Of a stretch of DNA of 64,000 nucleotides, positions 6,485 to 24,183 are shown one piece after another (the first letter of the stretch is position 1; each line of letters starts with the position of its first letter). A program made the position numbers and the translations under genes. Below the pieces are notes generated by a model. It had not been told where the DNA came from, made no database searches, and saw nothing but the letters and a program-made list of their open reading frames with translations. This DNA comes from Prevotella sp. HUN102 (GTDB lineage: Bacteria; Bacteroidota; Bacteroidia; Bacteroidales; Bacteroidaceae). The stretch spans positions 1-64,000 of the forward strand of contig NZ_JIAF01000001.1 of the NCBI RefSeq assembly GCF_000688375.1, given 5' to 3'.

Positions 6485-7514
6485 GAAAGTTGTTGAAAAT
6501 GTTGGTAATCTCGCTTATTTTTTGTAACTTTACAGTTGAACATCAATTAATTACAAACAATATAAGCGATGATTACCGAAGACAAAGTTATAGAAATTTT
6601 CTGTGTTATTGATGAGTTTTGCAAGAGTTTAGGCGCAGAATTGAATAAAAACCTTCAAATAGCTCCCACAGACGAAGGCTACAAGCATGTCAGACACCGT
6701 AAGGGGCGTATGTGTGAAAGTGAGATTATGACCATTTTGCTATGCTGCCATTTTGGGACTTTCCGAAACTTCAAACATTATTATCTGTTCTTTGTGAAAG
6801 TTCATCTTGCCCAATGTTTTCCCACCGCAGTATCCTACAATCGCTTTGTGGAACTTATGCCTCGGGAGTTCTTTACAATGCTTACTTTTATGAAACTTTA
6901 CGCCTTTGGCAAATGCACGGGAATCAGCTTTGTCGATAGTACTATGATACCTGTATGCCATAATGTAAGAAGATATTTCAATAGGTTTTTTGAGGGCTTT
7001 GCCAAGAGCGGAAAGGGTACAATGGGATGGTGCCATGGCTTCAAACTGCATCTGCTTTGCAATGACACAGGAGAGATCATAACATTCTGTCTTACACCTG
7101 CCAACGTGGCCGACAGAGATCAAAGGGTATGGTCTGTTTTCACAAAAGTGCTCTATGGAAAAGTATTCGCAGACAGGGGATATATCAAGCGGGAACTCTT
7201 TGAGGGACTCTTTGAGCAGGGAATACATCTTGTACACGGACTGAAAGCAAAGATGAAAAACAAACTTATGCCTGTGTATGATAAAATCATGCTACGAAAG
7301 AGATATATAATAGAGTGTATAAATGAGTTATTGAAAAACAAGGCAAACCTTGTACATTCAAGACACAGGTCGATACATAATTTCATCATGAACTTATGCT
7401 CGGCATTGGCGGCGTATTGTTTCTTTGAAAATAAACCGGATGGGCTGTCAGTATATTTGGAAGATAAAAGACAACTGGAACTTTTTTAAGATTTATTATC
7501 CCGAACTGGCGTAA
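6466..7514 (+). mobile_element. IS982-family insertion sequence
   Basis: Bounded by perfect 19-bp terminal inverted repeats, TTACGCCAGTTCGGGATAA, at 6466-6484 and, inverted, at 7496-7514. It encodes one intact transposase. The flanks (left AAACC, right ATAATG) show no target duplication, and the interrupted hsdR does not continue on the right. This indicates a deletion next to the element after insertion. Confidence 0.85.
6569..7489 (+). CDS. IS982-family transposase (DDE)
   Basis: 306 aa, full length for the family. The DDE catalytic region is visible: FVDSTMIPVCHNVR (first D, about residue 128), GWCHGFKLHLLCND (about 152-166), VFADRGYIKREL (second D, about 206-217) and the C-terminal E region with RYIIECINELLKNK and RHRSIHNF. 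An -OH end and inverted repeats are present on both sides, so the element may still be mobile. The start follows a ~85-nt IS leader. Confidence 0.92.
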   Translation: MITEDKVIEIFCVIDEFCKSLGAELNKNLQIAPTDEGYKHVRHRKGRMCESEIMTILLCCHFGTFRNFKHYYLFFVKVHLAQCFPTAVSYNRFVELMPREFFTMLTFMKLYAFGKCTGISFVDSTMIPVCHNVRRYFNRFFEGFAKSGKGTMGWCHGFKLHLLCNDTGEIITFCLTPANVADRDQRVWSVFTKVLYGKVFADRGYIKRELFEGLFEQGIHLVHGLKAKMKNKLMPVYDKIMLRKRYIIECINELLKNKANLVHSRHRSIHNFIMNLCSALAAYCFFENKPDGLSVYLEDKRQLELF

Positions 7515-7778
7515 ATAATGATTATATGGAATAAAATAGCACTTTATTTTTTATAAAACACCAATAAAAAAGAGCAGATTCCCTGCCCTCACTATTTCCC
7601 TCATTGGTCTATGTAAGCCTTCTGTAAACCAATGTAAACCTCTCGTAAATCCTATGAGCCTCAACAAGCCCCAGATGTAAACCGAAATTAAACCAATGTA
7701 AACGTTTCGTTTTACAGGCGCATATTCTATCTATACGCATAACTCTTTGAAACATAAAGCAATAAGCCGTTTTTGTCC
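7515..7778. repeat. Gene-free junction with TGTAAAC direct repeats
   Basis: Between the IS982 end and the truncated C39 gene no coding sequence is seen. TGTAAACC occurs at 7623, 7633 and 7676, and CCAATGTAAAC at 7629-7639 and again at 7693-7703. The repeats may mark an element end or a protein-binding site; neither can be shown. This stretch joins the mobile remnants to the peptide locus, so a rearrangement breakpoint lies in it. Confidence 0.4.
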
Positions 7779-8393
7779 TCAACTCATTTTATACGCTTCG
7801 TTCTGTGCCCCATAGAAGGGCAGTATGAGTTGCAACAGACTTCCTACAAGCAGTCCCAAAACTATTTGCCCGAAATACTTGTGGTACTTCCTTATGTATC
7901 TGAACAGGAACTTGAATGAACGCCCATCTCTTGTGTCATCTTCGGCAATGTTGTTAGTATAGAACTCCGGTGTGGGTTCGAGAAACATTGCTATGCCTTT
8001 TTCTTCTCCATTGTTTTTCGTGCTTATCCAGTGCTTCTTGAATTCCTCAAAATCGTATTTCACGAGTCCCTTTCCAGGGTCGGCGATGTAGAACGTCTTT
8101 CCCTTCTTTACCTTATAGAGTACTACGAAATGGTTTTGGTTCCAATGAAGAATACAGGGGACGTTTTCACGATTTAATTCTTCAACTTCTGCTAATCCAC
8201 ATTTATTATTTAGTCCTATTTTAGTTGCTGATTTACTGATTGCCGCAAGTGAAACCCCTTCTTTACTCTCAGGGCACAATGATGATAGAAAGACGGTGGA
8301 GTATTTCTTGCCGTGGTGTTTGCATATCATTTGCAGACACGCAATTCCACATTGCATAGCATCATGCTGTTTTGTCAGAGGAAACTTTCTCAT
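7779..8393 (-). pseudogene. C39 peptidase domain of a peptide exporter, truncated after the first membrane helix
   Basis: 204 aa. It keeps a complete C39 (bacteriocin-processing) peptidase domain: catalytic C15 in HDAMQCGIACL, H88 in LHWNQNHF and D105 in ADPGKG. It then enters the linker and the first transmembrane helix (about 174-193) and ends in an unrelated tail (YGAQNEAYKMS). From about 7815 to 8150 it is almost identical in DNA to the full exporter gene (19063-19400), but its first ~80 residues differ strongly. It lies 8 bp after the barrel gene, as the last gene of the GG-peptide operon. It is a broken transporter, but the peptidase residues are all present, so a stand-alone membrane-tethered protease is possible. 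Confidence 0.75.
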
Positions 8394-8401
8394 ACTTGAA
8401 T

Positions 8402-11014: not shown

Positions 11015-11052
11015 ATTGTGTGTTCCTGTTATCTTTTATTATTATGGTGGAA

Positions 11053-11868
11053 TCATTCCGTTTCCAGAGGTTGAAAGGTCAAAACCTTGCGAGAGGAATT
11101 TGGGTCGAGGTCTATACCCGTTTCGAGTTTAATCATTCCTGTCATATTTTCAAGATACTGCCTTTGCATCTTGAGAAAACTTTTGCGGTTTGTCTTTTCA
11201 AATTTCTTAGTGCCTACATACGCCTTGCTCATCACGATGGGCATATCCTTTACCTTTCGTATTCCCACGAGCGTGAAGTGATGATAGGCCTTTGTATCGT
11301 ATGCCTCCATAATGATTCCCGGCAGTCCGTGCAGTTTCCAAGGTCCGTCGCTGACGGGCACGTCGGGAGCGAACCACGCCGTCCAGTAATGTCCGCGATA
11401 GTTGCACGTGGCCATCTGCACGGTATAGTTCAGTATAGTTTTGGTGGAGTCGCTGATCGTCCAGTCAATATTGTTCAGCGAGTCGGTGTAGATATAGTCC
11501 TGCATCGTCAAACCGTCAGTAACAGTCATTTTCCCTTCAGGAAGATTTTTATAGACATAGGCTTTCATACGCTTATGCCGTGGCTGTACGCCTGTCCTTA
11601 GGAGTTCTTTAAATTCTGCATCAAAAATTTCGCGACGCTTAGGATTCTCTTGTAAAGAATCAACCTGAATGCTATGGTAACTGGCACATTTTGACAGTTT
11701 CGGTCCTACCAGCAGTATGAGTCTGTCGTCCTCTCCCATTATTTTCTTCAGACTATCCTTTACATATATATATTGATACTGACACTCCAAATTGGCATTA
11801 TCAAGTTTCTTCTGTGCTGAGACATTGCAGCATGCACATAGGAGTAATAGCATTAAAATCTGTTTCAT
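11053..11868 (-). CDS. GLPGLI-family protein, type a (module 1)
   Basis: 271 aa with a signal peptide (MKQILMLLLL ... NVSAQ, about 1-19). The family hallmark is at 181-186 (LHGLPGII), preceded by YRGHYWTAWFAPDVPVSDGPW. The GLPGLI family (TIGR01200) is periplasmic or surface in Bacteroidetes and has no known activity. The C-terminal half is almost identical to four neighbours, while residues about 25-110 vary. This 'a' type has the KFEKTNRKSFLKMQRQYLEN tail and the KQILMLLLL leader. It follows the b-type paralogue by 37 bp and precedes the barrel gene. Confidence 0.85.
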   Translation of the reverse strand: MKQILMLLLLCACCNVSAQKKLDNANLECQYQYIYVKDSLKKIMGEDDRLILLVGPKLSKCASYHSIQVDSLQENPKRREIFDAEFKELLRTGVQPRHKRMKAYVYKNLPEGKMTVTDGLTMQDYIYTDSLNNIDWTISDSTKTILNYTVQMATCNYRGHYWTAWFAPDVPVSDGPWKLHGLPGIIMEAYDTKAYHHFTLVGIRKVKDMPIVMSKAYVGTKKFEKTNRKSFLKMQRQYLENMTGMIKLETGIDLDPNSSRKVLTFQPLETE

Positions 11869-11905
11869 AGATATTTGGTTATATTTATCTGCTAAAATGG
11901 TGTTC

Positions 11906-12721
11906 TTATTCCGTTTCCAGAGGTTGGAAAGTCAATATCTTTGGGGAGGAATTGGGGGCAAGGTCAATGCCCGTTTCGAGCCTGATTATTCCGGTCGTAT
12001 CTTCATAATACTGTCTTTCCATCTTGATGAATTTCTGTCTGCTTACCTTTTCATACTTCTTGGTGCCTACATAGGTTTTGCTCATCACGATGGGCATATC
12101 CTTTACCTTTCGTATTCCCACGAGTGTGAAGTGATGATAAGCCTTTGTGTCGTATGCCTCCATTATGAGTCCTGGCAGTCCGTGCAGTTTCCAAGGTCCG
12201 TCGCTGACGGGCACGTCAGGGGCAAACCACGCCGTCCAGTGGTGTCCCCGATAGTCGCACGTAGCCATCTGCACGGTGTAGTTCAGTATCGTTTTGGTGG
12301 AATCGCTGATCGTCCAGTCAATATTATTCAGCGAGTCGGTGTAGATATAATCCTGTAAGAGCATTCCGTCAGTAACGGTCATTTTCCCTTCAGGAAGATT
12401 TTTATAGATGTATGCCTTCATACGCTTATGTGGTGGCAGTACACCTGTTTTTAAAAATTCTTTAAATCTTGCATCAAAAATTTCACGGTGTTTGGGATTT
12501 TCTTGTAAAGAATCAATCTGAAGGCTATAATAACTATAACATTTTGACAGCTTTGATCCTACCAGCAGCACGAGTCTGTCGTCCTCTCCCATTATTTTTT
12601 TCAGAGTATCCTCTACATATATATATTGATACTGACACTCCAGATTGGCAGCGTCAAGTTTCTTCTGTGCAGTTACAACAGATGATATTAATACAAAAAA
12701 AATGGTCCAAATGTATTTCAT
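11906..12721 (-). CDS. GLPGLI-family protein, type b (module 1)
   Basis: 271 aa. Signal peptide of the b type (MKYIWTIFFVLISSVVTAQ); GLPGLI at about 181-186. The tail is of b type (KKYEKVSRQKFIKMERQYYED), distinct from the a-type tail. It starts 101 bp after the stop of the module-1 GG peptide, with a hairpin region in between. It is followed by the a-type gene. One sequence oddity is DLAPNSS near the end, where the other copies have DLDPNSS. Confidence 0.85.
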   Translation of the reverse strand: MKYIWTIFFVLISSVVTAQKKLDAANLECQYQYIYVEDTLKKIMGEDDRLVLLVGSKLSKCYSYYSLQIDSLQENPKHREIFDARFKEFLKTGVLPPHKRMKAYIYKNLPEGKMTVTDGMLLQDYIYTDSLNNIDWTISDSTKTILNYTVQMATCDYRGHHWTAWFAPDVPVSDGPWKLHGLPGLIMEAYDTKAYHHFTLVGIRKVKDMPIVMSKTYVGTKKYEKVSRQKFIKMERQYYEDTTGIIRLETGIDLAPNSSPKILTFQPLETE

Positions 12722-12754
12722 ATATGAATTAAAGATAATTATGTACTTCCAAAT

Positions 12755-12815
12755 AAAAAAGACTAAACGTATTGAAGCGTTTTACAGGTGGATACTTTTT
12801 GCAAATATCCACCCA
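12755..12815 (-). terminator. Hairpins between GG peptide 1 and GLPGLI genes (possible attenuator)
   Basis: In minus-strand sense the peptide stop is followed by GGTGGATA ... TATCCACC (8-bp stem, 12806-12813 with 12787-12794). Next comes AAACG ... CGTTT (12765-12782) and a T-rich run. Partial termination here would make more peptide than downstream protein. The arrangement recurs after the other two peptides. Confidence 0.5.
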
Positions 12816-12822
12816 TAATAGT

Positions 12823-12990
12823 TTAGTGATTTACACAGTGAGTGTTGTAACCAACAGTCCAACCTGCCAGTTCATTTTCTTTCATTTTCCCTTTCTTGCT
12901 TTCCATAATTTGGCGAAGGCTTTCGCAATACTCTTCTCTGGAAACACCTCCGAAGATGTTTTCCAATTCTTCAATTTTTAATTTTTCCAT
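12823..12990 (-). CDS. Double-glycine leader peptide 1 (candidate secreted peptide precursor)
   Basis: 55 aa, below usual ORF-calling limits. The leader MEKLKIEELENIFGG ends in a GG processing site preceded by the hydrophobic positions (L4, L9, I12) expected by C39 peptidases. The predicted mature part is 40 aa, begins VSREEYCESL and ends AGWTVGYNTHCVNH, with two cysteines (7 and 37 of the mature part). Two further copies lie upstream at 14990 and 16301, with an identical leader and closely similar ends. The start follows a purine-rich CCAAGGAC stretch. Being in the same operon as GLPGLI genes, a barrel and a C39 domain supports export with cleavage after GG. Confidence 0.85.
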   Translation of the reverse strand: MEKLKIEELENIFGGVSREEYCESLRQIMESKKGKMKENELAGWTVGYNTHCVNH

Positions 12991-13218
12991 GTCCTTGGTT
13001 ATTTATTAATGTTAAAAAATGGCCAACCAATAATACCCTTATCCGCGGTTGGGGCTTTCTTGCGTTTAAAGAGGCAGGCCTTACCTCTCCATAGATAGCA
13101 AATTGGAGGATTGGCAACTTCTTCGCCTTTGACATCTATGTTTTGTTTTTATCTATTACATCGGATATATCAGCTATTTTGTGTTCATATTATAATGTTC
13201 GTATCTTTATTTCTATAT
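12991..13218 (-). promoter_or_regulatory. Conserved leader/upstream region, module 1
   Basis: About 200 bp upstream of the GG peptide, highly similar to 15158-15386 and, less so, to 16463-16680. It holds an outer stem CATAGAT/ATCTATG (13090-13096 with 13134-13140) and a second stem AGAGG/CCTCT. There is no clear -33/-7 promoter in the proximal part. Possible short ORFs differ in frame between copies, so I read it as a structured leader or regulatory DNA, not a gene. Confidence 0.5.
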
Positions 13219-14031
13219 TTACTCCGTTTCCAGAGGTTGGAAGGTTAATATCTTGTGTGAGGAATTTGGGTCGAGGTCAATGCCTGTTTCGAGTTTAATC
13301 ATTCCTGTCATATTTTCAAGATACTGCCTTTGCATCTTGAGGAAACTTTTCCGGTTTGTCTTTTCAAATTTGTTGGTGCCTACATAGGTTTTGCTCATCA
13401 CGATGGGCATATCCTTTACCTTTCGTATTCCCACGAGTGTGAAGTGATGATAAGCCTTTGTGTCGTATGCCTCCATTATGAGTCCCGGCAGTCCGTGCAG
13501 TTTCCAAGGTCCGTCGCTGACGGGCACGTCGAGAGCGAACCACGCCGTCCAGTGGTGTCCCCGATAGTCGCACGTAGCCATCTGCACGGTATAGTTCAGG
13601 ATAGTTTTGGTGGAGTCGCTGATTGTCCATTCAATATTGTTCAGTGAGTCGGTGTAGATATAGTCTTGCTCTGTCAGCCCATCGGTAACTGTCATTTGTT
13701 TTTCGGGATAGTTTTTATATACATACGTTTTCATACGTTTGTGTGGTGGGTCTACATTGCTGGTAAGAGCCTGATTAATGCCTGCACTCACAATTTCAAA
13801 CCAGTTTGGTTTCGAGAAAGTTGTGTCCATCTGCATACTGTAATAGCTGTAACACTTAGAGACCTTTGCTCCGATTAGCAATACCAATCTGTCGTCTTTC
13901 GTGCTTCCTTTTAAAGTATCGTTCTGATAGACATAGTTGTATTGGCACTCCAGCTTGGCATCATCAAGTTTCTTCTGTGCTGCGACATTGCAGCATACGG
14001 ACAGGAGTAACAGCATTAAAATCTGTTTCAT
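13219..14031 (-). CDS. GLPGLI-family protein, type a (module 2)
   Basis: 270 aa, a-type signal peptide (MKQILMLLLLSVCCNVAAQ) and a-type tail. GLPGLI lies near 180-185. The variable segment (about 25-100) is unlike the module-1 a protein: it has QNDTLKGSTKDDRLVLLIGAK and the IVSAGINQALTSNVDPPHKR stretch, part of which it shares with the module-3 protein at 15387. One change in an otherwise fixed block is WFALDVPVSDG, where the other copies have WFAPDVPVSDG. It is the last gene of module 2; the next module's leader begins directly after it. Confidence 0.85.
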   Translation of the reverse strand: MKQILMLLLLSVCCNVAAQKKLDDAKLECQYNYVYQNDTLKGSTKDDRLVLLIGAKVSKCYSYYSMQMDTTFSKPNWFEIVSAGINQALTSNVDPPHKRMKTYVYKNYPEKQMTVTDGLTEQDYIYTDSLNNIEWTISDSTKTILNYTVQMATCDYRGHHWTAWFALDVPVSDGPWKLHGLPGLIMEAYDTKAYHHFTLVGIRKVKDMPIVMSKTYVGTNKFEKTNRKSFLKMQRQYLENMTGMIKLETGIDLDPNSSHKILTFQPLETE

Positions 14032-14072
14032 AGATATTTGGTTATATTTTTTTATCCGCCATAATGGTATTC

Positions 14073-14888
14073 TTATTCCGTTTCCAGAGGTTGGAAGGTC
14101 AAAACCTTACGAGAGGAATTAGGGTCGAGGTCAATGCCCGTTTCGAGCCTGATCATTCCGGTCGTATCTTCATAATACTGTCTTTCCATCTTGATGAATT
14201 TCTGTCTGCTTACCTTTTCATACTTCTTGGTGCCTACATAGGTTTTGCTCATCACGATGGGTATATCCTTTACCTTTCGTATTCCCATGAGTGTGAAGTG
14301 ATGATAGGCCTTAGTGTCGTATGCCTCCATTATGAGTCCTGGCAGTCCGTGCAGTTTCCAAGGTCCGTCGCTGACGGGCACGTCAGGAGCGAACCACGCC
14401 GTCCAGTGGTGTCCCCGGTAGTCGCACGTGGCCATCTGCACGGTGTAGTTCAGTATCGTTTTGGTGGAATCGCTGATCGTCCAGTCAATATTATTCAGCG
14501 AGTCGGTGTAGATATAGTCCTGCAGCGTCATTCCGTCAGTAACGGTCATTTTCCCCTCAGGAAGATTTTTATAGACATAGGTCTTCATACGCTTATGCCG
14601 TGGCCGTACACCTGTTTTTAAAAACTCCATAATTTCTGCCTCATAGATTTCATTGCCCTTGGGATTCTCTTCTAAAGAATCAATCTGAAGACTGTAATAA
14701 CTGGCACATTTTGACAGTTTCGGTCCTACCAGCAGTATGAGTCTGTCGTCCTCTCCCATTATTTTTTTCAGAGTATCCTTTACATATATATATTGATACT
14801 GACACTCCAGATTGGCAGCGTCAAGTTTCTTCTGTGCAGTTACAACAGATGATATTAATACAAAAAAAATGGTCCAAATGTATTTCAT
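14073..14888 (-). CDS. GLPGLI-family protein, type b (module 2)
   Basis: 271 aa, b-type signal peptide identical to the module-1 b protein and b-type tail. GLPGLI at about 181-186. The variable stretch reads SLEENPKGNEIYEAEIMEFL, while the rest is nearly identical in DNA to 11906-12721, which shows recent duplication or ongoing gene conversion. It begins 101 bp after GG peptide 2, the same spacing as in module 1, and is followed by the a-type gene after 41 bp. Confidence 0.85.
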   Translation of the reverse strand: MKYIWTIFFVLISSVVTAQKKLDAANLECQYQYIYVKDTLKKIMGEDDRLILLVGPKLSKCASYYSLQIDSLEENPKGNEIYEAEIMEFLKTGVRPRHKRMKTYVYKNLPEGKMTVTDGMTLQDYIYTDSLNNIDWTISDSTKTILNYTVQMATCDYRGHHWTAWFAPDVPVSDGPWKLHGLPGLIMEAYDTKAYHHFTLMGIRKVKDIPIVMSKTYVGTKKYEKVSRQKFIKMERQYYEDTTGMIRLETGIDLDPNSSRKVLTFQPLETE

Positions 14889-14989
14889 ATATGATTTAAA
14901 GATAATTATGTACTTCCAAATAGAAAAGACTAAACGTATTGAAACGTTTTACAGATGGATGCTTTTTGCAAATATCCACCCATAATAGT

Positions 14990-15157
14990 TTAGTGATTTA
15001 CACAGTGAGTGTTGTAACCAACAGTCCAACCTGCAAGTTCGTTTTCTTCCATTTCACCTTTCCTTGATTTCATAATTTGGCGAAGGCTCTCGCAATACTC
15101 TTCTCTGGAAACACCTCCGAAGATGTTTTCCAATTCTTCAATTTTTAATTTTTCCAT
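14990..15157 (-). CDS. Double-glycine leader peptide 2
   Basis: 55 aa. The leader is identical to peptide 1 (MEKLKIEELENIFGG). The mature part differs at four or five positions in the charged middle (IMKSRKGEMEEN against IMESKKGKMKEN) and has the same end, AGWTVGYNTHCVNH. Conservation of leader and C-terminus with drift in the middle suggests selection on the processing signal and on the cysteine-containing tail. It is followed by the same hairpin/T-rich arrangement (14931-14982), though the upper stem has mismatches here and the lower AAACG/CGTTT stem is intact. Confidence 0.85.
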   Translation of the reverse strand: MEKLKIEELENIFGGVSREEYCESLRQIMKSRKGEMEENELAGWTVGYNTHCVNH

Positions 15158-15386
15158 GTCCTTGGTTATTTATTAATGTTTTAAAATAGCCTGCCAATAA
15201 TACCCTTATCCGCGGTTGAGGCTTTCTTGTGTTTAGAGAGGGCAGGCCTTACCTCTTCATAGATAGCAAATTGGAGGATTAGCAACTTCTTCTCCTTTGA
15301 CATCTATGTTTTGTTTTTATCTACTACATCGGATATATCAGCTATTTTGTGTTCATATTATAATGTTCGTATCTTTATTTCTATAT
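15158..15386 (-). promoter_or_regulatory. Conserved leader/upstream region, module 2
   Basis: Second copy of the ~200-bp leader; stem CATAGAT/ATCTATG at 15258-15264 with 15302-15308, and AGAGG/CCTCT just below it. A 39-codon ORF (15184-15303, minus) exists in this copy only. In module 1 a one-base difference shifts its frame, and in module 3 it has no ATG and an early stop, so it is not supported as a gene. Confidence 0.5.
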
Positions 15387-16199
15387 TTACTCCGTTTCCA
15401 GAGGTTGGAAGGTTAACACCCTGCGAGAGGAATTTGGGTCGAGGTCTATACCTGTTTCGAGTTTAATCATTCCTGTCATATTTTCAAGATACTGCCTTTG
15501 CATCTTGAGGAAACTTTTCCGGTTTGTCTTTTCAAATTTGTTGGTGCCTACATAGGTTTTGCTCATCACGATGGGCATATCCTTTACCTTTCGTATTCCC
15601 ACAAGCGTGAAGTGATGATATGCCTTTGTATCGTATGCCTCCATTATGAGTCCCGGCAGTCCGTGCAGTTTCCAAGGTCCGTCGCTGACGGGCACGTCAG
15701 GAGCGAACCACGCCGTCCAGTGGTGTCCCCGATAGTCGCACGTAGCCATCTGCACGGTATAGTTCAGGATAGTTTTAGTAGAATCGCTAACAGACCAGTC
15801 AATATTGTTCAGCGAATCCGTATAGATATAGTCCTGCAGCATCAATCCGTCGGTAACTGTCATTTTTCCCTCGGGATAATTCTTATAGGTGTAGGCTTTC
15901 ATACGCTTATGCCGTGGCCGTACACCTGTTCTTAGAAATTCTTTAACTTCTTGAAGATAAATTTTATTACCATTAGGATTTTCTTCTAACGAATCGATTT
16001 GAAGGCTATGGTAACTATAACATTTAGAAATTTTTGCTCCGATTAGCAATACTAATCTGTCGTCTTTCGTGCTTCCTTTTAAAGTATCGTTCTGATAGAC
16101 ATAGTAGTATTGGCACTCCAGCTTGGCATCATCAAGTTTCTTCTGTGCAGTTGCAACAGATGCTATCAATACAAAAAGTGTAGTCCAAATGTATTTCAT
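15387..16199 (-). CDS. GLPGLI-family protein, b/a hybrid (module 3)
   Basis: 270 aa. It begins with a b-type signal peptide (MKYIWTTLFVLIASVATAQ) and carries the DTLKGSTKDDRLVLLIGAK block otherwise found in the module-2 a protein. Its middle section (SLEENPNGNKIYLQEVKEFL) is b-like, and it ends with the a-type tail (FEKTNRKSFLKMQRQYLEN). Modules 1 and 2 have two GLPGLI genes (b then a); module 3 has this single one. The simplest explanation is a b-a fusion by recombination within the conserved middle. GLPGLI is intact, so it is probably a working protein. Confidence 0.85.
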   Translation of the reverse strand: MKYIWTTLFVLIASVATAQKKLDDAKLECQYYYVYQNDTLKGSTKDDRLVLLIGAKISKCYSYHSLQIDSLEENPNGNKIYLQEVKEFLRTGVRPRHKRMKAYTYKNYPEGKMTVTDGLMLQDYIYTDSLNNIDWSVSDSTKTILNYTVQMATCDYRGHHWTAWFAPDVPVSDGPWKLHGLPGLIMEAYDTKAYHHFTLVGIRKVKDMPIVMSKTYVGTNKFEKTNRKSFLKMQRQYLENMTGMIKLETGIDLDPNSSRRVLTFQPLETE

Positions 16200-16300
16200 A
16201 TATGATTTAAAGATAATTATGTACTTTCAAATAGAAAAGACTAAACATATTGGCACATTTTACAGGTGGATATTCTTTGCAAATATCCACCCATAGTTGT

Positions 16301-16462
16301 TTAAAGGTCTATGCAGTGGGTTTTAAAGCCAATAGACCAACCTTCAAGTGCTTTGCCTGAAAGTTGATTGTCTTTTAAAATTTTGAGGAGCAGTTCGCAA
16401 TACTCTTCTCTGGAAACACCTCCGAAGATGTTTTCCAATTCTTCAATTTTTAATTTTTCCAT
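16301..16462 (-). CDS. Double-glycine leader peptide 3
   Basis: 53 aa. The leader and first ten mature residues match peptides 1 and 2 exactly (MEKLKIEELENIFGG, then VSREEYCE). The middle is different (LLLKILKDNQLSGKALE) and the tail is related: GWSIGFKTHCIDL against GWTVGYNTHCVNH. The pattern GW(T/S)(V/I)G(Y/F)xTHC is thus common to all three and is the likely functional or modified end. This is the promoter-proximal peptide of the whole run. A hairpin GGTGGATA/TATCCACC follows at 16265-16291. Confidence 0.85.
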   Translation of the reverse strand: MEKLKIEELENIFGGVSREEYCELLLKILKDNQLSGKALEGWSIGFKTHCIDL

Positions 16463-16750
16463 GTTTTTGTTGTTTATTAATGTTAAAAAAAGTCTGCCAA
16501 TAACGTCCTTAACCGGTTTGGGGACTTCTTGCCTTTAAAGAGGTTAGACCTTGCCCTTTATATAGATAACAAATTAAAAGGTTAGCTACTTCTTTGTCCT
16601 TGATATCTATTATTTTATTCTCATCTACTATGTTTGATATACATAGGTAATATATCAGCTATTTTACATTCATCGAGCAATTATATAATTGTAGATAAAC
16701 ACAGAAGATTGCTACAAAGGTAAAGAATAATAAATAAAATGCCAAAGAAA
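16463..16750 (-). promoter_or_regulatory. Promoter and leader of module 3
   Basis: On the minus strand TTTG at 16746-16743, a 20-bp spacer and TACCTTTGT at 16722-16714 give a good Bacteroidetes promoter. The predicted start is near 16707, so the leader is about 245 nt. It has the diverged third copy of the structured element (ATAGAT/ATCTAT stem, 16562-16567 with 16605-16610). This promoter could drive the entire leftward run down to 7779, with the module leaders acting as internal control points. Confidence 0.65.
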
Positions 16751-16819
16751 ATGAGAACACTTAGTACACAGCAGTATAAAAAGTTTGTATATCGTTGGTT
16801 ATAATAGGTTTATGGATAA

Positions 16820-16957
16820 CTGTTTACTCAGTACACAGCAGGCTAAATGCTTCTGATACGCTTGTCCAATCCATTTGTTCCCTCGGTGTTGAATAGTTTT
16901 TTATTGAGTGTGCGGCGCAAATTCGTTACGCGCTGCTTGGTTATATTCAGCATATCA
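16820..16957 (-). pseudogene. C-terminal fragment of a TPR-HTH regulator paralogue
   Basis: The minus strand reads IPSDMLNITKQRVTNLR and then RTLNKKLFNTEGTNGLDKR up to a stop at about 16842. This is nearly identical to the last ~40 residues of the regulator at 24337-26055. The similarity also covers the DNA beyond the stop, including a TTTACTCAGTACACAG near-palindrome (16820-16841) and the promoter region to about 16750. On the other side it runs into the last codons of the adaptor gene. It is the scar of a second regulator gene that once stood here. Confidence 0.75.
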
Positions 16958-17437
16958 CTTGGAATAGAATAGTCTCTGCATCATCCTTTCCAACACAGTC
17001 CTGTTGGATATGAGTATGCTTGCCGTGCCTGCCATCCCCTTCTTCATCCTGTACTTCTCTGCTCGGATGGCGATAGTTGCTGTAAAGATGTTTCCATTCT
17101 TTCTCATCTTGGGCGTCGTGTCGGTGCTCACAATCTCCCCTTCTTTGTATCCGAAGTCTTCAGCATTGTATCCCTCGAATGCCACGCTTGCTTTCATCCC
17201 CGGCTTTATGTCGTTCACATACCGGTAGGGGACAGACAGAATCGCCTGATTCTCGTCCAATGCCACGATACTGGCATTGACGGTTTCGGGCCATGACAGG
17301 GTAGAGATTGCCGCAAGCAGCCCTATTACCGTCAGCGCGATGCAGAGGATGCCATATCTCACTACTGTTGGGGGAATCTCTCCTATGATATTCCTTACCT
17401 TTTCACTTCTCAGTTCAATCTTGTCGTTCTTTTCCAT
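16955..17437 (-). CDS. Short HlyD-like membrane-fusion protein (exporter adaptor)
   Basis: 160 aa. N-terminal cytoplasmic stretch, one membrane helix (about 26-47), then directly a beta-barrel-like domain (ILSVPYRYVNDIKPGMKASVAFEGY ... IVSTDTTPKMRKNGNIF) and a C-terminal GMAGTASILI segment typical of HlyD/EmrA proteins. The coiled-coil hairpin and lipoyl halves found in ~400-aa adaptors are absent. It starts 7 bp after the exporter gene, so it should work with it. Its last residues (RLFYSK) are read from sequence resembling the regulator paralogue, so the true C-terminus may have been replaced. Confidence 0.7.
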   Translation of the reverse strand: MEKNDKIELRSEKVRNIIGEIPPTVVRYGILCIALTVIGLLAAISTLSWPETVNASIVALDENQAILSVPYRYVNDIKPGMKASVAFEGYNAEDFGYKEGEIVSTDTTPKMRKNGNIFTATIAIRAEKYRMKKGMAGTASILISNRTVLERMMQRLFYSK

Positions 17438-17444
17438 ATTGCTT

Positions 17445-19661
17445 TTAGTTTCCCAGTTCCAACTGATTCTTCACAAGGGCGTAGTATGTGCCACGCTTTT
17501 TCGTAAGCTCTTCGTGATTCCCGGTTTCTACCACCTTTCCTTTGTCCAGCACCACTATTTGGTCGGCATTCCTGACAGTACTGAGCCTGTGTGCCACGAT
17601 TACGACGGTTTTTCCTTTGTAGAATGCGTCAAGATTCTGCACTATCCTCCTCTCATTGTTGGCATCGAGGGAATTTGTGGCTTCATCGAGGAAGATATAG
17701 GTCGGATTCTTGTAGACGGCTCTGGCAATGAGTATGCGCTGCTTCTGTCCCTGACTTAGCCCCACACCGTCTCTACCGATTTTGGTATTGTACTTCAGGG
17801 GGAGATTCATAACGTATTCATCGATGCAGGCAATCCTCGCAGCCTTGATGAGCCGCTGTTCGTCTATGTTGCCGTCGTCCACGGCAATGTTTCGGGCTAT
17901 TGACTCTGAGAATATCACGCCATCCTGCATTACCACGCCACACTGTTTGCGCCACCATTTCTTGTTGAGCGTGTTGATGTCCGTTTCTCCTATCCTTATC
18001 TCTCCTGTCAGCGTGGGATAATAGCCCAGCAAGAGTTTTATGAGAGTGGTTTTCCCACTTCCCGAAGCTCCTACAATGGCCGTGACCTTTCCCTTGGGAA
18101 TATGTATGCTCACACCGTCGATGATGTTTTTCAGGGTATGAGGGTCGTATTTGAAACCTACGTTCACGAGTTCTATCCCCCTGTCTTTCTCCTTCACTTT
18201 GTTTTCAAGACCTAGCTTTCCATTCTCATCTTCCATGTGATGTATCTCATTGATGCGATCGAGGCTGATTTTCACGTCCTGTATGGAATAGAAGAATCCC
18301 ATCAGCTGCTCTACGGGAGAGTTGAGCTGTCCAATGATGTACTGCACGGCGAGCATCATTCCGAGAGTAAGCTGTCCGTGTATCACTGCTGTCGCCGCCA
18401 CCACTGTTATGACAATGTTCTTCAGTTCGTTGATGAATATTGCTCCGGCTTCCTGTGTCTGCTGTAGCCTGAGCGATTTTATCTGCACGCCGAAGAGGTC
18501 GGCCTGTACGTCCTCCCATTCCCATCGCCTGCGTTGTTCGCAGTCTTGGAGTTTGATTTCCTGCATCGACGTGATGAACTCGTAGGTCTTGTTGTTGTTT
18601 ATGGCCTGTTGCTCGAAGAGTTCATAGTCGAGCACCTTTCTGCGTCTGAGGAAGAGGGCGAGCCAACTGCCATAGAGCAGACTGCCGAGCATAAATATAG
18701 TGAAGACAAGCCAGTCATAGGCCAGCAGCACGATGCTGAAGACAATAAAGGTAAAGAGCGAGAAAACGATGTTCAGCGTCTGCTGTGTGAGGAAACTGTT
18801 CACACGCCCGTGGTCTCCCATTCTTTGCATAAGGTCTCCCATCAGTTTGGTGTCGAAGAAAGCCATCGGCAGTTTGAGCAGCTTAATGAAGAAATCGCTC
18901 ACAAGTGATATGTTTATCCTCATAGATATGTGCAGCAGAAGCCACCGGCGTATGAAGTCTATTGCTGTCCGGCTGACTGTAAGCATCAGTTGTCCCAGAA
19001 GGATGAGCCAGATGAATCCGACGTCCTGATTCCTTATTCCCATGTCTACGATAGACTGTGTGAGGAAGGGCAGTATGAGTTGCAACAGACTTCCTACAAG
19101 CAGTCCCAAAACTATTTGCCCGAAATACTTGTGGTACTTCCTTATGTATCTGAACAGGAACTTGAATGAACGCCCATCTCTTGTGTCATCTTCGGCAATG
19201 TTGTTAGTATAGAACTCCGGTGTGGGTTCGAGAAACATTGCTATGCCTTTTTCTTCTCCATTGTTTTTCGTGCTTATCCAGTGCTTCTTGAATTCCTCAA
19301 AATCGTATTTCACGAGTCCCTTTCCGGGGTCGGCGATGTAGAACGTCTTTCCTTTCTTTACCTTGTAGAGTACTACGAAGTGATTCTGATTCCAATGGAG
19401 GATGCAGGGAGAAAAATTATCTTGTAAAAGCCTTTTTACTCCCAAACACCCAACCACAGTATTAAATCCTATCTTTTTAGCAGCCTTGTCGATTCCAAGT
19501 AAAGAAATTCCATTTTTGCTTGAGGAGCAATATTTTCGTATTTTTTCTATATCAGAATGCCGCTTATAATACGTGGCTATCATTGCTAAACAAGTAGGGC
19601 CACAGTCCATTGCGTCTCTTTGATGGATAGATATGATACTTTTCTTGCTCAATTCCGTCAT
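17445..19661 (-). CDS. Peptidase-containing ABC exporter (C39 bacteriocin/GG-peptide type)
   Basis: 738 aa, full length. C39 peptidase domain with catalytic C20 (RDAMDCGPTCL), H94 (HWNQNHF) and D111 (ADPGKG). A six-helix transmembrane domain spans about 180-470. The ATPase carries Walker A GASGSGKTT (about 530), signature LSQGQKQR and Walker B/D-loop FLDEATNSLD. Proteins of this design cleave a leader after GG and export the rest across the inner membrane. The start overlaps the barrel gene's stop (ATGA, 4 bp) and the adaptor follows 7 bp later. It is the only complete exporter in the region, so it may also handle the three GG peptides at 12.8-16.5 kb. Confidence 0.92.
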   Translation of the reverse strand: MTELSKKSIISIHQRDAMDCGPTCLAMIATYYKRHSDIEKIRKYCSSSKNGISLLGIDKAAKKIGFNTVVGCLGVKRLLQDNFSPCILHWNQNHFVVLYKVKKGKTFYIADPGKGLVKYDFEEFKKHWISTKNNGEEKGIAMFLEPTPEFYTNNIAEDDTRDGRSFKFLFRYIRKYHKYFGQIVLGLLVGSLLQLILPFLTQSIVDMGIRNQDVGFIWLILLGQLMLTVSRTAIDFIRRWLLLHISMRINISLVSDFFIKLLKLPMAFFDTKLMGDLMQRMGDHGRVNSFLTQQTLNIVFSLFTFIVFSIVLLAYDWLVFTIFMLGSLLYGSWLALFLRRRKVLDYELFEQQAINNNKTYEFITSMQEIKLQDCEQRRRWEWEDVQADLFGVQIKSLRLQQTQEAGAIFINELKNIVITVVAATAVIHGQLTLGMMLAVQYIIGQLNSPVEQLMGFFYSIQDVKISLDRINEIHHMEDENGKLGLENKVKEKDRGIELVNVGFKYDPHTLKNIIDGVSIHIPKGKVTAIVGASGSGKTTLIKLLLGYYPTLTGEIRIGETDINTLNKKWWRKQCGVVMQDGVIFSESIARNIAVDDGNIDEQRLIKAARIACIDEYVMNLPLKYNTKIGRDGVGLSQGQKQRILIARAVYKNPTYIFLDEATNSLDANNERRIVQNLDAFYKGKTVVIVAHRLSTVRNADQIVVLDKGKVVETGNHEELTKKRGTYYALVKNQLELGN

Positions 19662-21958
19662 AACGTCGGTGTTTCCCTCGCAGTAGAGTTTACGATGTTG
19701 TTTTTCTGTCGCTTTATCTTATCGCCGGCAGCGAAGTTCCACGACACGGAGAGCTTCAGGCGCGTCAGAGGCGACACATCGATGCGCTTCATTTCTATGC
19801 CGCCGGTCCTGAAGGTCATTTCGTTCTCGCTGTGCAGGATGTTGGCTGCCATAAGACTTATGTTCATCCGATTGTTGAGCAGGGTCATATAGGCACCGAG
19901 GTCTACTCCGTATCTGATGCCGGTTTTGTAGCTCAGCTTCTCCCGTGGCGTTTCCCCATTGAATGAGAGCGTCAGGCCGAGATTCTCCCTGAGCTGCACC
20001 TGCTGGTCGAGACTCCATCCGAAGGAGACCTTTCTCACGTCGAGTTCGGGCATCGACTCATAATCGTGTCTGGCATATACGAGGTTGTTGGTGTTCCAAC
20101 GGCTGAAGAACCTGTTGGTGTAGGAAAGGGAGAGGTAGTTGCCCACCAGTTTCCCCACGTTGTCGGGCTGCGTGTAGACCACTTCGGGATTCTTAGCGTC
20201 CTGATGCGCCATCACGTGGATGATGTCCTTTCCGGTTCTGAGCCGGTAGGTTATCGTCCACCGTGGGTTTACGTACCAGTTCAGCTCCACGGCGTGGAAA
20301 CTCTCCTTCCTCAGCTTCTGGTTTCCTATGCTGTACAGCTTCTCGTTCTGATAGATGGCCAACGGACTGTAATATCCGTAGCTCGGCAGGGAGAAGTCTT
20401 TCTTGTAGGCGAGCGTGAGGAAGGACCTCTTTGCGGGATTGAGCACGTATTGCAGCTGCACGTTGGCAAAGAGACCTCTGGACTCCACCTTGTAGTCGGC
20501 TGCGGGATAGAGTTGGTCCTTGTAGCGGACGTCCGTTGCCAGATAGCTCGCCCCCGCCTGTGCGTAGAGTTTCTTTCCGAACATACGTCCGTATTCTATC
20601 CACGGCGAGTTGTCGCCGCCCGAAATCCTGAAGTCCTGTCTCCTTATTCCGTTGAGCAACGGATTCTCTATTCCGTCAGTCCGGTTGTTGTCCACCGCTC
20701 TTGTGAACCTAAATCCTGCGCTGAGGCTGCTTCCGTCCTTGAAACTAAGCTCCACGCACGGGTCGGCCTTGAGGTAGTCCATCGTCTGGTCGAGCCGTGT
20801 ATTGTCTTCCTTTTCCCTGAAATACGTCTCGTCGGTTCCACTGTTCTGCCTGAAATATTCCACCTTTGCCGAGAAGGACGAACCTTCGCCCACAGGCAGT
20901 CCGAGCTTGTAGTAGAGGCCGGCATTCAGTTCGTTGAACTTCTGCCTGTCGTTCTGTCTGAACGCCAATAGTTTTCCTGTGGTGTTTTCCAAGTTTATCC
21001 TGTCGTTTACCCAGTAAAAACCTCCGTAGAGGCTCAGCGTCTGTGCGGGGCTAATCTTGTAGGTCATCCCGATGTTCTCAATAATGGCTTTCTCCTTCTT
21101 GTCGGTATCGGAATGCCTGTATTCGGTGTATCCGAGATAGGAGTCGGTTCTATCGTATCGTGTCCTGTACGTTCCCCCTCCTCCCTTGAGGTTGTTGTAG
21201 AGCGTGAACTTCCCCTTCTGATACTGTATTGCCGAGGATAGCATCAGGTCCACCAGCCCCATCTTGTCTGTCTGAGCTGCCAGTTCGGCGTTGCCTATCA
21301 TTCCCTGCTGCTCCCTTAACGTAACCTTGACGATGCCTCCCACGGCATCCTTTCCGTAGGCAATGCCGGGATTGGATACGATTTCAACGTTCTTTACCAT
21401 AGATGCCGGTATGGCCTGAAGCTCTGAACTGGAAATGAGCCTGTCGCCGAGGTAGATGAGCGTTCCTTCCTTGCCGTTTACGAGGATGTTGCTGTTCATT
21501 ACCTGCACGCCCTGCACGTATCTGAGAGCCTCCATCGTGTTCTTGCCCTCTGCAATGGGGTTTCCCTGCATCCTTACGGTGAGTGCACCGGAGGGTTTCC
21601 TCGTGGTATAGGAGCCGAGCACCACCACCTCGGAGAGTTCGGTCTGGTTCTCTTCGAGTGCAATCCTCATTTCGGTGTCGTCAGCCTTTGTGCGCTGCGT
21701 TTTGTAGCCCACGCCGCTGAAGACGAGCCAGACCGGCGAGGGAATGCTGTCAAAGACGAATTGCCCTCGCCCGTCGGTAAGTTTTCCGGTTATGAATGTG
21801 GAATCCGAAAGGTTTCTTACGGTTACGTTAATGAACTCCAAAGGTTCGCCTTTCGTGTTCACGACCGTTCCGAAGATTCTCTTCCTGCTCTCCTGTGCGG
21901 AAATGCTTATCTGTCCCAATAGGGAGAGAATAAGAAGTAAGACTGTTTTCAATTTCAT
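19658..21958 (-). CDS. Outer-membrane beta-barrel family protein (TonB-receptor-like) of the RiPP operon
   Basis: 766 aa. Signal peptide (MKLKTVLLLILSLLGQISISAQ), a CarboxypepD_reg-like domain (about 28-105), a plug-like domain (ELSEVVVLGSYTTRKPSGALT ... VNGKEGTLIYLGDRLI, about 110-190) and a C-terminal barrel. Both ends overlap neighbours by 4 bp (ATGA): the radical-SAM gene upstream and the exporter downstream, so translation is probably coupled. It is markedly G+C-richer than the radical-SAM gene. As no TolC-like protein is encoded here, this barrel may pass or re-import the mature peptide; that is inference. Confidence 0.85.
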   Translation of the reverse strand: MKLKTVLLLILSLLGQISISAQESRKRIFGTVVNTKGEPLEFINVTVRNLSDSTFITGKLTDGRGQFVFDSIPSPVWLVFSGVGYKTQRTKADDTEMRIALEENQTELSEVVVLGSYTTRKPSGALTVRMQGNPIAEGKNTMEALRYVQGVQVMNSNILVNGKEGTLIYLGDRLISSSELQAIPASMVKNVEIVSNPGIAYGKDAVGGIVKVTLREQQGMIGNAELAAQTDKMGLVDLMLSSAIQYQKGKFTLYNNLKGGGGTYRTRYDRTDSYLGYTEYRHSDTDKKEKAIIENIGMTYKISPAQTLSLYGGFYWVNDRINLENTTGKLLAFRQNDRQKFNELNAGLYYKLGLPVGEGSSFSAKVEYFRQNSGTDETYFREKEDNTRLDQTMDYLKADPCVELSFKDGSSLSAGFRFTRAVDNNRTDGIENPLLNGIRRQDFRISGGDNSPWIEYGRMFGKKLYAQAGASYLATDVRYKDQLYPAADYKVESRGLFANVQLQYVLNPAKRSFLTLAYKKDFSLPSYGYYSPLAIYQNEKLYSIGNQKLRKESFHAVELNWYVNPRWTITYRLRTGKDIIHVMAHQDAKNPEVVYTQPDNVGKLVGNYLSLSYTNRFFSRWNTNNLVYARHDYESMPELDVRKVSFGWSLDQQVQLRENLGLTLSFNGETPREKLSYKTGIRYGVDLGAYMTLLNNRMNISLMAANILHSENEMTFRTGGIEMKRIDVSPLTRLKLSVSWNFAAGDKIKRQKNNIVNSTARETPTL

Positions 21959-23229
21959 AATGATATTATTTTTTTATTTATAAAACTGCTAATGCTTTCC
22001 GTGATAAGTTCCCTACAGCAGGAATAATTAGACCCTTCTATTTTTTTCTGTAAACAAGATGTGGCAAACATACAACTTGGTAAGATATTGCATTTAAGGC
22101 ATTCCTCATTAATAAAAGGAGCAGTCTCAGTAATATATTTATAATATAATCCATTTGGAAGGAATTTTCCATTAGGGAGAATTTTTCCTATTGAATATTT
22201 TTTATCATAATCTCTTGCAGTACATTTATATACAGACAAATCATAGTTTATGACATATTGGTCTGCATTTTCTGTATAACATGACAAACATCGGTTTCTT
22301 AGTATGTTGTCAGGAACAGAATACCCCTTTATTAGGGCTTCTTGGCAAAAATTTTGAATGCTTTTATTTAAATCCATAATTTTATCTGATTTTTGCCAAA
22401 CAATGTGTGGTGAGATTTGAATCTTGTGTCTAATTTTAAAATCAAAATCATCAAGAATAGAAGATAGTGTATGTATATTTTCAGGGGTGTAATTGATTCT
22501 AAGTTCGATATGTATGTTTTTTACTTTATTGCAAAGCAGATGTATGTTTGAGACAATTGTATCATAGGAATTTGTTAAATTGTTTGAAAATCTTGTCTTG
22601 TTGTGTAATTCTTTACCACCATCTAATGTTATTTGAAATTGCGATAGTCCAATTTCATTGATTTTTACAACATTGTTTTCATTAATAAGACTTCCGTTTG
22701 TTGTTGTCATACAGTACAAAGTTATATTATTTTCTTTGCACCAAGAAATTAACTGTTTTGAAAATGGATAAATTATACTGTTAAAACACAACATAGGTTC
22801 TCCACCAAACCAATCAAGAATAATATTCTTTTTAGATTTTGAGATAGTTTCCTTCTTAATAAACTCTAATATTGAAAATGTCCCTTCTTTGCTAATTCTG
22901 GAAGGTTTATGATTTTCATAGCAATACCAGCATTGGAAATTACAATTCAATGTGGGTAATATCGTGATGCGTATAGAATCAGAATTGTATCTACAACGAA
23001 AATTTGCTGCTTTGACAGCATCACTTTCTTCTATTGATTCATCTATAAGCACAAAAGCGTTTTCGAGACATTGTTTTACATCAGGGGAAAGGATGTCTAA
23101 ATTTGGATTTGTTAATGCAGTGTACAACTCCTCATCAATTTCCAATAAAGTTTTGCTAAGTTGATGATATAAATATAATTTTTCTCCTTGTCGATGAAAT
23201 ATTGTATATTTACTTACTTTTATAGCCAT
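21955..23229 (-). CDS. Radical SAM/SPASM peptide maturase
   Basis: 424 aa. The [4Fe-4S]-SAM motif is C96-x3-C100-x2-C103 within LPTLNCNFQCWYCYENH. It is followed by the GGEPML segment that binds SAM. The C-terminal SPASM region has several cysteines (NRCLSCYTENADQ, YKCTARDYD, CLKCNILPSC, SYSCC-like end) for auxiliary clusters. An N-terminal ~85-residue domain could be the leader-recognition part. Enzymes of this class install thioether or carbon crosslinks in ribosomal peptides; the cysteine-rich precursor 83 bp upstream is the obvious substrate. A/T-rich compared with the next genes. The exact reaction cannot be deduced. Confidence 0.9.
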   Translation of the reverse strand: MAIKVSKYTIFHRQGEKLYLYHQLSKTLLEIDEELYTALTNPNLDILSPDVKQCLENAFVLIDESIEESDAVKAANFRCRYNSDSIRITILPTLNCNFQCWYCYENHKPSRISKEGTFSILEFIKKETISKSKKNIILDWFGGEPMLCFNSIIYPFSKQLISWCKENNITLYCMTTTNGSLINENNVVKINEIGLSQFQITLDGGKELHNKTRFSNNLTNSYDTIVSNIHLLCNKVKNIHIELRINYTPENIHTLSSILDDFDFKIRHKIQISPHIVWQKSDKIMDLNKSIQNFCQEALIKGYSVPDNILRNRCLSCYTENADQYVINYDLSVYKCTARDYDKKYSIGKILPNGKFLPNGLYYKYITETAPFINEECLKCNILPSCMFATSCLQKKIEGSNYSCCRELITESISSFINKKIISL

Positions 23230-23312: not shown

Positions 23313-23543
23313 TTATGGTCTTGTTATAGGCTTATCACCACCGTCTCCTGTTGTAGGTTTTAATGGTTTGACTTCGTCGCATGAACAAATAAATCCCTTG
23401 TTGGTATTATCGCCATTTCCATCACAACTGCAAGAAAGAACAGCTTTGTTAGTGTTGGCCATCATATCAGTGCCTCCACACAAATCTACCATCTGTTTTT
23501 CAGAAACTTGTTCTCCCTTTTCAAGAATTTTTAAAATTTTCAT
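23313..23543 (-). CDS. GG-leader, cysteine-containing RiPP precursor
   Basis: 76 aa. The leader MKILKILEKGEQVSEKQMVDLCGG ends in the GG cleavage site (residues 23-24). It fits the Bacteroidales natural-product precursor pattern (TIGR04149-like): K/L-rich start, acidic middle, L-x-GG. The core is about 52 aa with two paired-cysteine patches, LSCSCDG and FICSCDE, then a proline/glycine-rich tail (LKPTTGDGGDKPITRP). The CxC repeats are plausible sites for crosslinking by the neighbouring radical-SAM enzyme. It is followed by hairpin, maturase, barrel, exporter and adaptor, a complete make-and-export set. Confidence 0.88.
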   Translation of the reverse strand: MKILKILEKGEQVSEKQMVDLCGGTDMMANTNKAVLSCSCDGNGDNTNKGFICSCDEVKPLKPTTGDGGDKPITRP

Positions 23544-23814: not shown

Positions 23815-24183
23815 TTAACTACTTATAAAAACAGAACCTGTATATGCGCATTTTTCAGAACTCAGTTTCAATTTATAGCTTCCTTTAAGATTTGTAGGTA
23901 GCGTGTATTCTGAAATGTTCGGAACTATATGTGCAGTATATACAAGGACATTGTTCTCATCCCACAGTGTTAATATAAATTCTGTGTTGATGGATTGGAA
24001 TGTTAATATATAGTCCTTAAATATTGCTGATACAGACTGTGTAGGCATTCTTCTTATAGGAGTGGCCTCTTTTCCCGGATTGACGTAGGTTGCAGTGAAG
24101 ATAATCTTCTGTTCATTATCGGCATAAATGGATAATGGGCAGATTGTCAGCAGGGCAAGAATGATTGTTATAAGTTTTTTCAT
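23815..24183 (-). CDS. DUF3244-type secreted protein
   Basis: 122 aa with a signal peptide (about 1-21, ending LSIYA). The rest is a small all-beta domain with the pattern of DUF3244: RRMPTQSVSAIFKDYILTFQS near the middle and a conserved GSYKLKLSSEKCAYTGSVFIS end. DUF3244 proteins are small secreted proteins of Prevotella and Bacteroides, sometimes beside proteases; no biochemical role is established to my knowledge. It has its own promoter and stands between the regulator gene and the RiPP operon, so involvement in the peptide system is possible but unproven. Confidence 0.7.
   Translation of the reverse strand: MKKLITIILALLTICPLSIYADNEQKIIFTATYVNPGKEATPIRRMPTQSVSAIFKDYILTFQSINTEFILTLWDENNVLVYTAHIVPNISEYTLPTNLKGSYKLKLSSEKCAYTGSVFISS

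Follow-up and report, generated by a model that had tools for sequence, protein, structure and literature searches.

The window, by which we mean the whole stretch of DNA analysed here, comprises the first 64,000 nucleotides (forward strand) of contig NZ_JIAF01000001.1 from the 3.3-Mb genome of Prevotella sp. HUN102 (RefSeq assembly GCF_000688375.1). Entirely on its minus strand lies a multi-copy system of small peptides with Gly-Gly (GG) leaders, in which peptide genes alternate with genes for GLPGLI proteins and in which peptide core, GLPGLI proteins and an outer-membrane barrel appear to have been exchanged together behind a nearly constant leader and exporter. In gene order the run encodes a TPR-like protein, a DUF3244-like protein, a 76-amino-acid (aa) Cys-rich GG precursor, a radical SAM maturase, an outer-membrane barrel, a complete C39 peptidase-containing ABC exporter (PCAT) and a 160-aa HlyD-like protein. 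These are followed by three modules, each a peptide gene with one or two GLPGLI genes, then by an 870-aa barrel and a C39 fragment. The parts on which the argument rests are:

17445..19661, minus strand: PCAT
16955..17437, minus strand: short HlyD-like protein of 160 aa, without a Pfam match and sub-threshold for NCBIfam type_I_hlyD (E 5e-7)
16301..16462, minus strand: peptide precursor 3, 53 aa; likeness to the C3 locus of the same genome stops at 16417
15387..16199, minus strand: GLPGLI 5, 270 aa, signal peptide judged by eye
14990..15157, minus strand: peptide precursor 2, 55 aa
14073..14888, minus strand: GLPGLI 4, assigned by TIGR01200 score
13219..14031, minus strand: GLPGLI 3, assigned by TIGR01200 score
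12823..12990, minus strand: peptide precursor 1, 55 aa, with a 15-aa GG leader and a 40-aa core bearing Cys at core positions 7 and 37
11906..12721, minus strand: GLPGLI 2, assigned by TIGR01200 score
11053..11868, minus strand: GLPGLI 1, assigned by TIGR01200 score
8402..11014, minus strand: TonB-receptor-like outer-membrane barrel with a CarboxypepD_reg domain and a sub-threshold plug
7779..8393, minus strand: truncated second PCAT, C39 domain only

The initial annotation of this DNA had described three open reading frames (ORFs) of 53-55 codons with the identical leader MEKLKIEELENIFGG and GW(T/S)(V/I)G(Y/F)xTHC tails, each followed after about 100 bp by GLPGLI genes, in a run ending with a barrel and a C39 peptidase domain. 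All of this holds: the ORFs are on the minus strand, their leaders are identical at the DNA level too, the distance from stop codon to GLPGLI start is 101 bp three times (starts at 12721, 14888 and 16199), and the barrel and the C39 domain are found at 8402-11014 and 7779-8393, the latter being 73% identical to the window PCAT over 204 residues. The complete PCAT, the HlyD-like gene, the second barrel and the radical SAM gene with its Cys-rich precursor, all upstream, were absent from that description. What had been observed is real apart from a structured leader claimed upstream of the peptide genes, since the three 140-nt 5' leaders fold like their shuffles (z 0.10, 0.80 and 0.31).

Sequence comparison indicates that the peptide ORFs are more than chance. 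The three modules are tandem paralogues, a homologue is present in P. brunnea, and the ratio of nonsynonymous to synonymous substitutions (dN/dS) against that species is about 0.16, 0.19 and 0.44 for the cores of copies 1, 2 and 3 (Nei-Gojobori, 38-40 codons). The cores therefore appear constrained, copy 3 less clearly so, and the coding constraint whose absence the initial annotation had named as contrary evidence is present. Two ORFs lying upstream (12971-13135 and 15181-15303) were rejected as a conserved gene, copy 3 having no ATG.

The window PCAT passes the Pfam cut-offs for Peptidase_C39 (107.8 bits), ABC_membrane (92.1) and ABC_tran (102.3) in one protein, while the NCBIfam models listed for it remain below theirs. 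The P. brunnea counterpart of the HlyD-like protein reaches HlyD_3. For the 870-aa barrel, CarbopepD_reg_2 is above and Plug below cut-off, and a profile of 13 such barrels matches SusC N-termini and, at E 0.0035-0.005, the C-termini of ferripyoverdine receptors. All five window GLPGLI proteins far exceed the TIGR01200 cut-off (188.6-193.5 bits against 50), and so belong to a family (TIGR01200/PF09697) that itself has no assigned role. TIGR01200 matches occur in 91 of 199 sampled genomes of the bacterial family at E <= 0.001 (84 above cut-off), the highest count in one genome being at least 13.

The main evidence for a joint specificity unit comes from contig C3 of the same genome, which carries a PCAT end, an HlyD gene, the precursor P0003, a GLPGLI gene, a GLPGLI fragment and a barrel gene. 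Window positions 17599-16417 align with C3 over 1184 nt at 98.6% identity, with a single gap base. The alignment ends one base past the GG codons, its other end (17599) having been set by the query. The shared stretch spans the PCAT end (98% identical protein), HlyD (99%), the 5' leader and the GG codons, whereas beyond them the core differs and identity drops to 28-30% for GLPGLI and 29% for the barrel. Loci of other species sort accordingly. P. brunnea groups with the window (GLPGLI 70-78%, barrel 78%), and C3 forms a second group with genomes G184 and G042 (GLPGLI 41-50% among full-length copies and 43-45% with the C3 fragment; barrel 40-60%), the values between the two groups being 26-33% for GLPGLI and 28-31% for the barrel. 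The complete PCATs are 74-86% identical in all six comparisons. Because core, GLPGLI and barrel are replaced together past the GG codons, they appear to form one specificity unit, as judged from one switch and five loci. Contig C2 overlaps both the end of C3 (99.6% identity across 7.2 kb) and the start of the window (1-2848; 99.5% across 2.9 kb), which probably puts the C3 cassette at a distance of a few kb from the window on the chromosome; ribosomal RNA, judged by eye, lies between the window start and this cassette.

The co-inherited specificity cassette is read from the sequence, and the mechanism that we infer beyond it is offered as a model. At slightly less than even confidence, we read the locus as a multi-copy GG-peptide system in which a generic front (leader and exporter) is joined to a specificity cassette (core, GLPGLI and barrel), with GLPGLI as the periplasmic partner of the core. 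The PCAT would cut after GG and free the 38-40 aa core into the periplasm, because the 160-aa HlyD-like protein seems too short to reach a TolC tunnel. The two core Cys would form one long-range disulfide, and less GLPGLI than peptide would be made owing to a hairpin after the peptide gene. The variable N-terminal half of GLPGLI would bind the core and its conserved C-terminal half would dock on the TonB-receptor-like barrel, and GLPGLI and barrel together would move the peptide across the outer membrane, export being a first guess for the direction. More generally, GLPGLI proteins may help to handle such peptides in the cell envelope.

The two halves of GLPGLI do differ in their divergence. 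The P. brunnea pair is 51% identical in the N-half (dS 3.0) and 97% in the C-half (dS 0.12), and the five window copies, with half borders set slightly differently, average 68% and 90%. Six of seven further GLPGLI arrays show the same tendency, the C-half being the more similar one by 3 to 14 points, and in L089 it is the less similar, so that the trend is general but weak; some of the arrays were hand-picked, not drawn at random, from the list of TIGR01200-positive genomes. The plain reading is that gene conversion keeps the C-halves alike and leaves the N-halves free to diverge.

Peptide, GLPGLI and barrel recur together elsewhere. The order is repeated in P. brunnea (L018) and in two further genomes, G184 (L031) and G042 (L072), so that GG peptides adjoining GLPGLI genes are found in other genomes, as the initial annotation had proposed to check. 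They are also found for the TIGR04149 family, radical-SAM-modified precursors of ribosomally synthesised and post-translationally modified peptides (RiPPs), which share the GG leader but differ in leader sequence and core from the precursors studied here (THC precursors, after their tail); precursors 1 and 3 have no TIGR04149 match at E up to 1. TIGR04149 occurs in 17 of the 199 family genomes at 31 places, 30 of them taken as loci, and GLPGLI lies within 1.5 kb on the same strand in 13/30 (7/17 genomes). By our own arithmetic, a random stretch of that size would meet GLPGLI in about 1.5% of cases if a 3.4 Mb genome held 13. The 13 positive loci are not independent, five coming from one array and two pairs from alike arrays of G300 and G363, and in L116 the peptide is downstream of GLPGLI. 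As a loose control, GLPGLI lies within 1.5 kb in 0/13 other radical SAM loci of the genus. Loci were annotated by BLAST against our own query set and by two small hidden Markov models (HMMs), to which G396, G363 and G318, three of the seven positive genomes, contributed GLPGLI proteins. L074 ends in a barrel and contains six GG ORFs, of which five immediately precede a GLPGLI gene and the sixth is separated from one by a 167-aa ORF. In L147, genes for peptide, GLPGLI, radical SAM, barrel, PCAT and HlyD follow each other on the same strand, with a single unassigned ORF between barrel and PCAT.

Some related arrangements were seen in passing. A single open frame in L073 (5685-6665) and L092 (8181-9161) joins a precursor-like Cys-rich GG leader peptide to a GLPGLI protein. 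TIGR04149-type precursors alternate with large barrels in L149 (G359), which also has a VKOR-like protein and the start of a PCAT, and in which no GLPGLI was recognised. L080 and L083 (G637) hold two GG peptides that carry ISC close to the start of the core and QCT close to the end; each precedes a 194-220-aa secreted protein that is not GLPGLI by HMM.

Among 30 GLPGLI loci, the best locus of each of 30 genomes, a barrel of the 870-aa type follows downstream on the same strand in 25. It is conceivable, at somewhat lower confidence than the two-part reading above, that GLPGLI and barrel form a family-wide envelope module for exported peptides. GLPGLI would then serve a dedicated TonB-receptor-like channel as its core-specific periplasmic adaptor. 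Recombination at the GG codons would exchange these two and the core as a single cassette, with leader and exporter staying constant. If true, this would assign a role to a large orphan family, whose function becomes testable through its repeated association with GG-leader peptides and a dedicated barrel. The position of the switch, exactly where leader meets core, indicates which parts recognise the peptide and suggests a route by which Bacteroidetes peptide systems diversify.

A search with one precursor sequence among 5.8 billion proteins returned three clusters, all from the same genome (the window copies in two, and P0003), and a search with a six-sequence alignment returned 16 proteins at E <= 10 among 189 candidates. 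Our table of 14 precursors leaves out P0005 (longer start), P0006 (without the first Cys) and P0009 and P0015 (other C-termini, without the last Cys). The leader is 15 aa in 13 of the 14, P0007 having 23 aa through an upstream start. Core length ranges from 33 to 40 aa, one Cys falling at core position 5-7 and the last at 32-37. A third Cys is present in five, the window peptides having two. Cys is kept in 11/11 rows of alignment A3; since P0006 has no first Cys, the pair is not universal. In the genus, the precursor profile matches 4/398 genomes (the strain's own, G184, G042 and G503), and a single-sequence search matches 5/299 at E <= 0.05, of which its own and G184 were taken as real; candidates in G189, G040 and G241 are partial matches within longer frames and were set aside. 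At the level of the order, 4/294 genomes match including its own, the other three matches being weak, leader-weighted and without adjoining GLPGLI, and a plasmid search found none. THC peptides are apparently a small undescribed family of a known kind, by the literature searched. In P. brunnea, G184 and G042 the gene immediately preceding the peptide encodes a protein with C39 and VKOR domains (498-504 aa, both above Pfam cut-offs in 3/3), which suggests a disulfide in the peptide.

Several results weigh against the reading of a generic front with a specificity cassette. Tandem duplication alone could copy peptide and GLPGLI together. HlyD (31-46%) and the VKOR protein (27-32%) diverge between species and depart from the pattern of a generic front, and the window genome has no VKOR match, by the C39-VKOR protein or the VKOR model, nor was one recognised in the window run, so that the putative disulfide step is without its expected enzyme there. 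TonB-like receptors normally import. The peptide family is rare, its profile matching only the four genus genomes above. A leader regular expression found a GG peptide in the 1.5-kb flanks of 1/30 GLPGLI loci, the window's own, with the same count for a narrower expression (the arrays L050 and L051 have GG ORFs beyond the flank); the GLPGLI-barrel pair thus exists without such a peptide, and a GG peptide beside every GLPGLI was rejected. Outside the family, GLPGLI adjoins 0/11 TIGR04149 loci in a class-wide sample (10 genomes; 5/11 below model cut-off), and a class-wide link was rejected likewise. The earlier suggestion that GLPGLI proteins are periplasmic partners of exported peptides is a good inference because the peptide-GLPGLI pair recurs and the core changes together with GLPGLI and barrel, although GLPGLI in general is not tied to such peptides.

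Joint replacement of core and GLPGLI would also be expected of immunity, in which the core would act on relatives as a toxin of the class II microcin type, each GLPGLI protein would inactivate its cognate core in the periplasm or protect the barrel, and peptide-less arrays would be orphan immunity banks. Such banks could be represented by L085 and L086, where nine and six diverged GLPGLI genes form arrays with no peptide gene recognised. A GLPGLI pair adjoining an ABC ATPase in P. nigrescens also agrees with immunity. We consider this unlikely, though the most serious of the rivals, in that the barrel co-varies too and the cores, with net charges of +2 to -6, are neutral or acidic in 12 of 14 and positive in 2, against the basic bacteroidetocins A and B, whose family's regions are without an obvious immunity gene in the part of the published description available (PMC6671954). 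Within L085, signal peptides are far more alike (79%) than mature halves (47% and 51%).

The hairpin on which the cassette reading draws lies between each peptide gene and its GLPGLI gene. These hairpins and two candidate promoters are:

12783..12817, minus strand: hairpin in the precursor 1/GLPGLI spacer
14950..14984, minus strand: hairpin in the precursor 2/GLPGLI spacer
16261..16295, minus strand: hairpin in the precursor 3/GLPGLI spacer
16715..16746, minus strand: candidate promoter TTTG-N20-TACCTTTG, before module 3
24208-24239: second candidate promoter, before the DUF3244-like gene

The 15-bp stem is stable relative to shuffles in the window copies (z -5.39, -4.00 and -4.19) and in P. 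brunnea (-7.85). Aligned over four sequences, 98.3% of cells are paired with two two-sided changes, a level of covariation that 64/500 shuffles reach and that is weak on its own. A strong stem follows the peptide gene in 6/6 folded THC spacers (three from the window, P. brunnea, C3 and G184; z -4.0 to -7.85). Of five whole or partial TIGR04149 spacers, three have one as well, at z -3.8 to -5.3, against 0.27 and -1.45 in the remaining two. An Rfam scan of 7000-27000 gave a single match at E 0.96, far below its gathering score. The hairpin is likelier a stabiliser or partial block than a full terminator, because no T run follows it on the coding strand in the window and a terminator scan lists none on the minus strand. 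The promoter pattern, the Bacteroidetes -33/-7 consensus, has 5 matches in the window against 2.24 expected from shuffles, a weak excess reached by 9/100 of them.

Upstream of the PCAT lie:

24337..26055, minus strand: TPR-like protein (Pfam TPR matches all below cut-off; membrane segment and helix-turn-helix by eye)
23815..24183, minus strand: DUF3244-like secreted protein, below Pfam cut-off
23313..23543, minus strand: Cys-rich precursor of 76 aa with a sub-threshold TIGR04149 match (E 0.0084), the likely substrate proper of the radical SAM enzyme
21955..23229, minus strand: radical SAM peptide maturase
19658..21958, minus strand: second outer-membrane barrel, OMP_b-brl_3

The maturase shares 85% identity with its counterparts in P. 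brunnea, P. disiens and P. corporis, where the adjoining Cys-rich precursor (CSCD...CSCDE) is kept as well; among the NCBIfam models listed for this precursor, 0/25 reach cut-off. The shared strand and neighbourhood in the window and P. brunnea, together with the conserved Cys of A3, might suggest that the enzyme modifies the THC peptides as in a sactipeptide-like RiPP, with Cys as thioether donors. We regard this as very improbable and set it aside because the enzyme has its own precursor beside it in all four species. Furthermore, no radical SAM gene was recognised in the 19-kb G042 stretch, though that genome has one on another contig, and in G184 (L154, 523-2056) a radical SAM gene and its own Cys-rich GG peptide come after the peptide-GLPGLI-barrel-PCAT-HlyD run, giving both peptide kinds in one locus as in the window.

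The TPR-like protein opens the loci of the window, P. brunnea (51% identical, passing TPR_12) and G184 (sub-threshold TPR_12 match). With the acidic cores and a receptor-like barrel inherited with the core, it would agree with signalling or scavenging, in which the peptide exits, returns through its own barrel, is held by GLPGLI and is read by the TPR-like protein. This seems improbable, more so than immunity, as the TPR protein has no direct link to the peptide, its gene also precedes radical SAM peptide units (window and G184), the G184 protein has no BLAST match to that of the window, and the G042 stretch shows a histidine kinase nearby instead of a TPR gene.

As for known systems, microcin V, a class II microcin, has a 15-aa GG leader, a PCAT with an adaptor, a disulfide and the TonB-dependent receptor of its target. 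The GG leader and the PCAT with adaptor appear here too, as would a disulfide and the involvement of a TonB-type receptor, but here the receptor-like barrel belongs to the gene run and is inherited with the core. Bacteroidetocins (class IIf) of Bacteroidetes are described, in the part of PMC6671954 available, with a GG leader of 15-16 aa, a mature peptide of about 40 residues, a PCAT and, in all 19, at least 2 Cys; A and B are 42 aa with four Cys and net charges of +6 and +2 and are encoded in a four-gene region with a five-transmembrane protein, and a thiol oxidoreductase gene occurs in most, not all, of the 19 regions. Set beside that description, the window system resembles bacteroidetocins in leader, PCAT and predicted mature length without showing all their features. 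An oxidase of VKOR type is present in the three related loci and was not recognised in the window run, and, unlike A and B, the cores have two (some three) Cys and net charges of +2 to -6 and come with GLPGLI, barrel and HlyD. The target of bacteroidetocins is BamA (PMC8546649, in part), GG precursors with PCATs are described for Bacteroidales (PMC10352776, in part), and graspetide loci contain barrels, TPR proteins and an unnamed secreted family, cluster 23, many members of which have a lipoprotein site (PMC8939145, in part). The part of PMC13289728 available holds nothing on GG peptides with GLPGLI. The literature searched showed no GLPGLI-peptide link (titles for 'GLPGLI') and no mention of PF09697, TIGR01200 or Porph_ging; a narrow search for GG peptides with TonB-type words found none, and none for GG leaders and VKOR was on the subject by title. 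By this literature, the tie of THC peptides to GLPGLI and barrel is the new part.

GLPGLI genes also occur in 15 plasmid records. Of three that were read, two have GLPGLI-GLPGLI-barrel-sized gene and one a lone gene. In the Prevotella nigrescens plasmid records L151 and L152, genes for an ABC ATPase and a DUF5687 protein precede GLPGLI-GLPGLI-barrel-sized gene, and the ATPase is perhaps another ABC partner for the GLPGLI-barrel module. In the window, a DDE transposase gene (6569-7489) lies beside the truncated C39 domain of the second PCAT.

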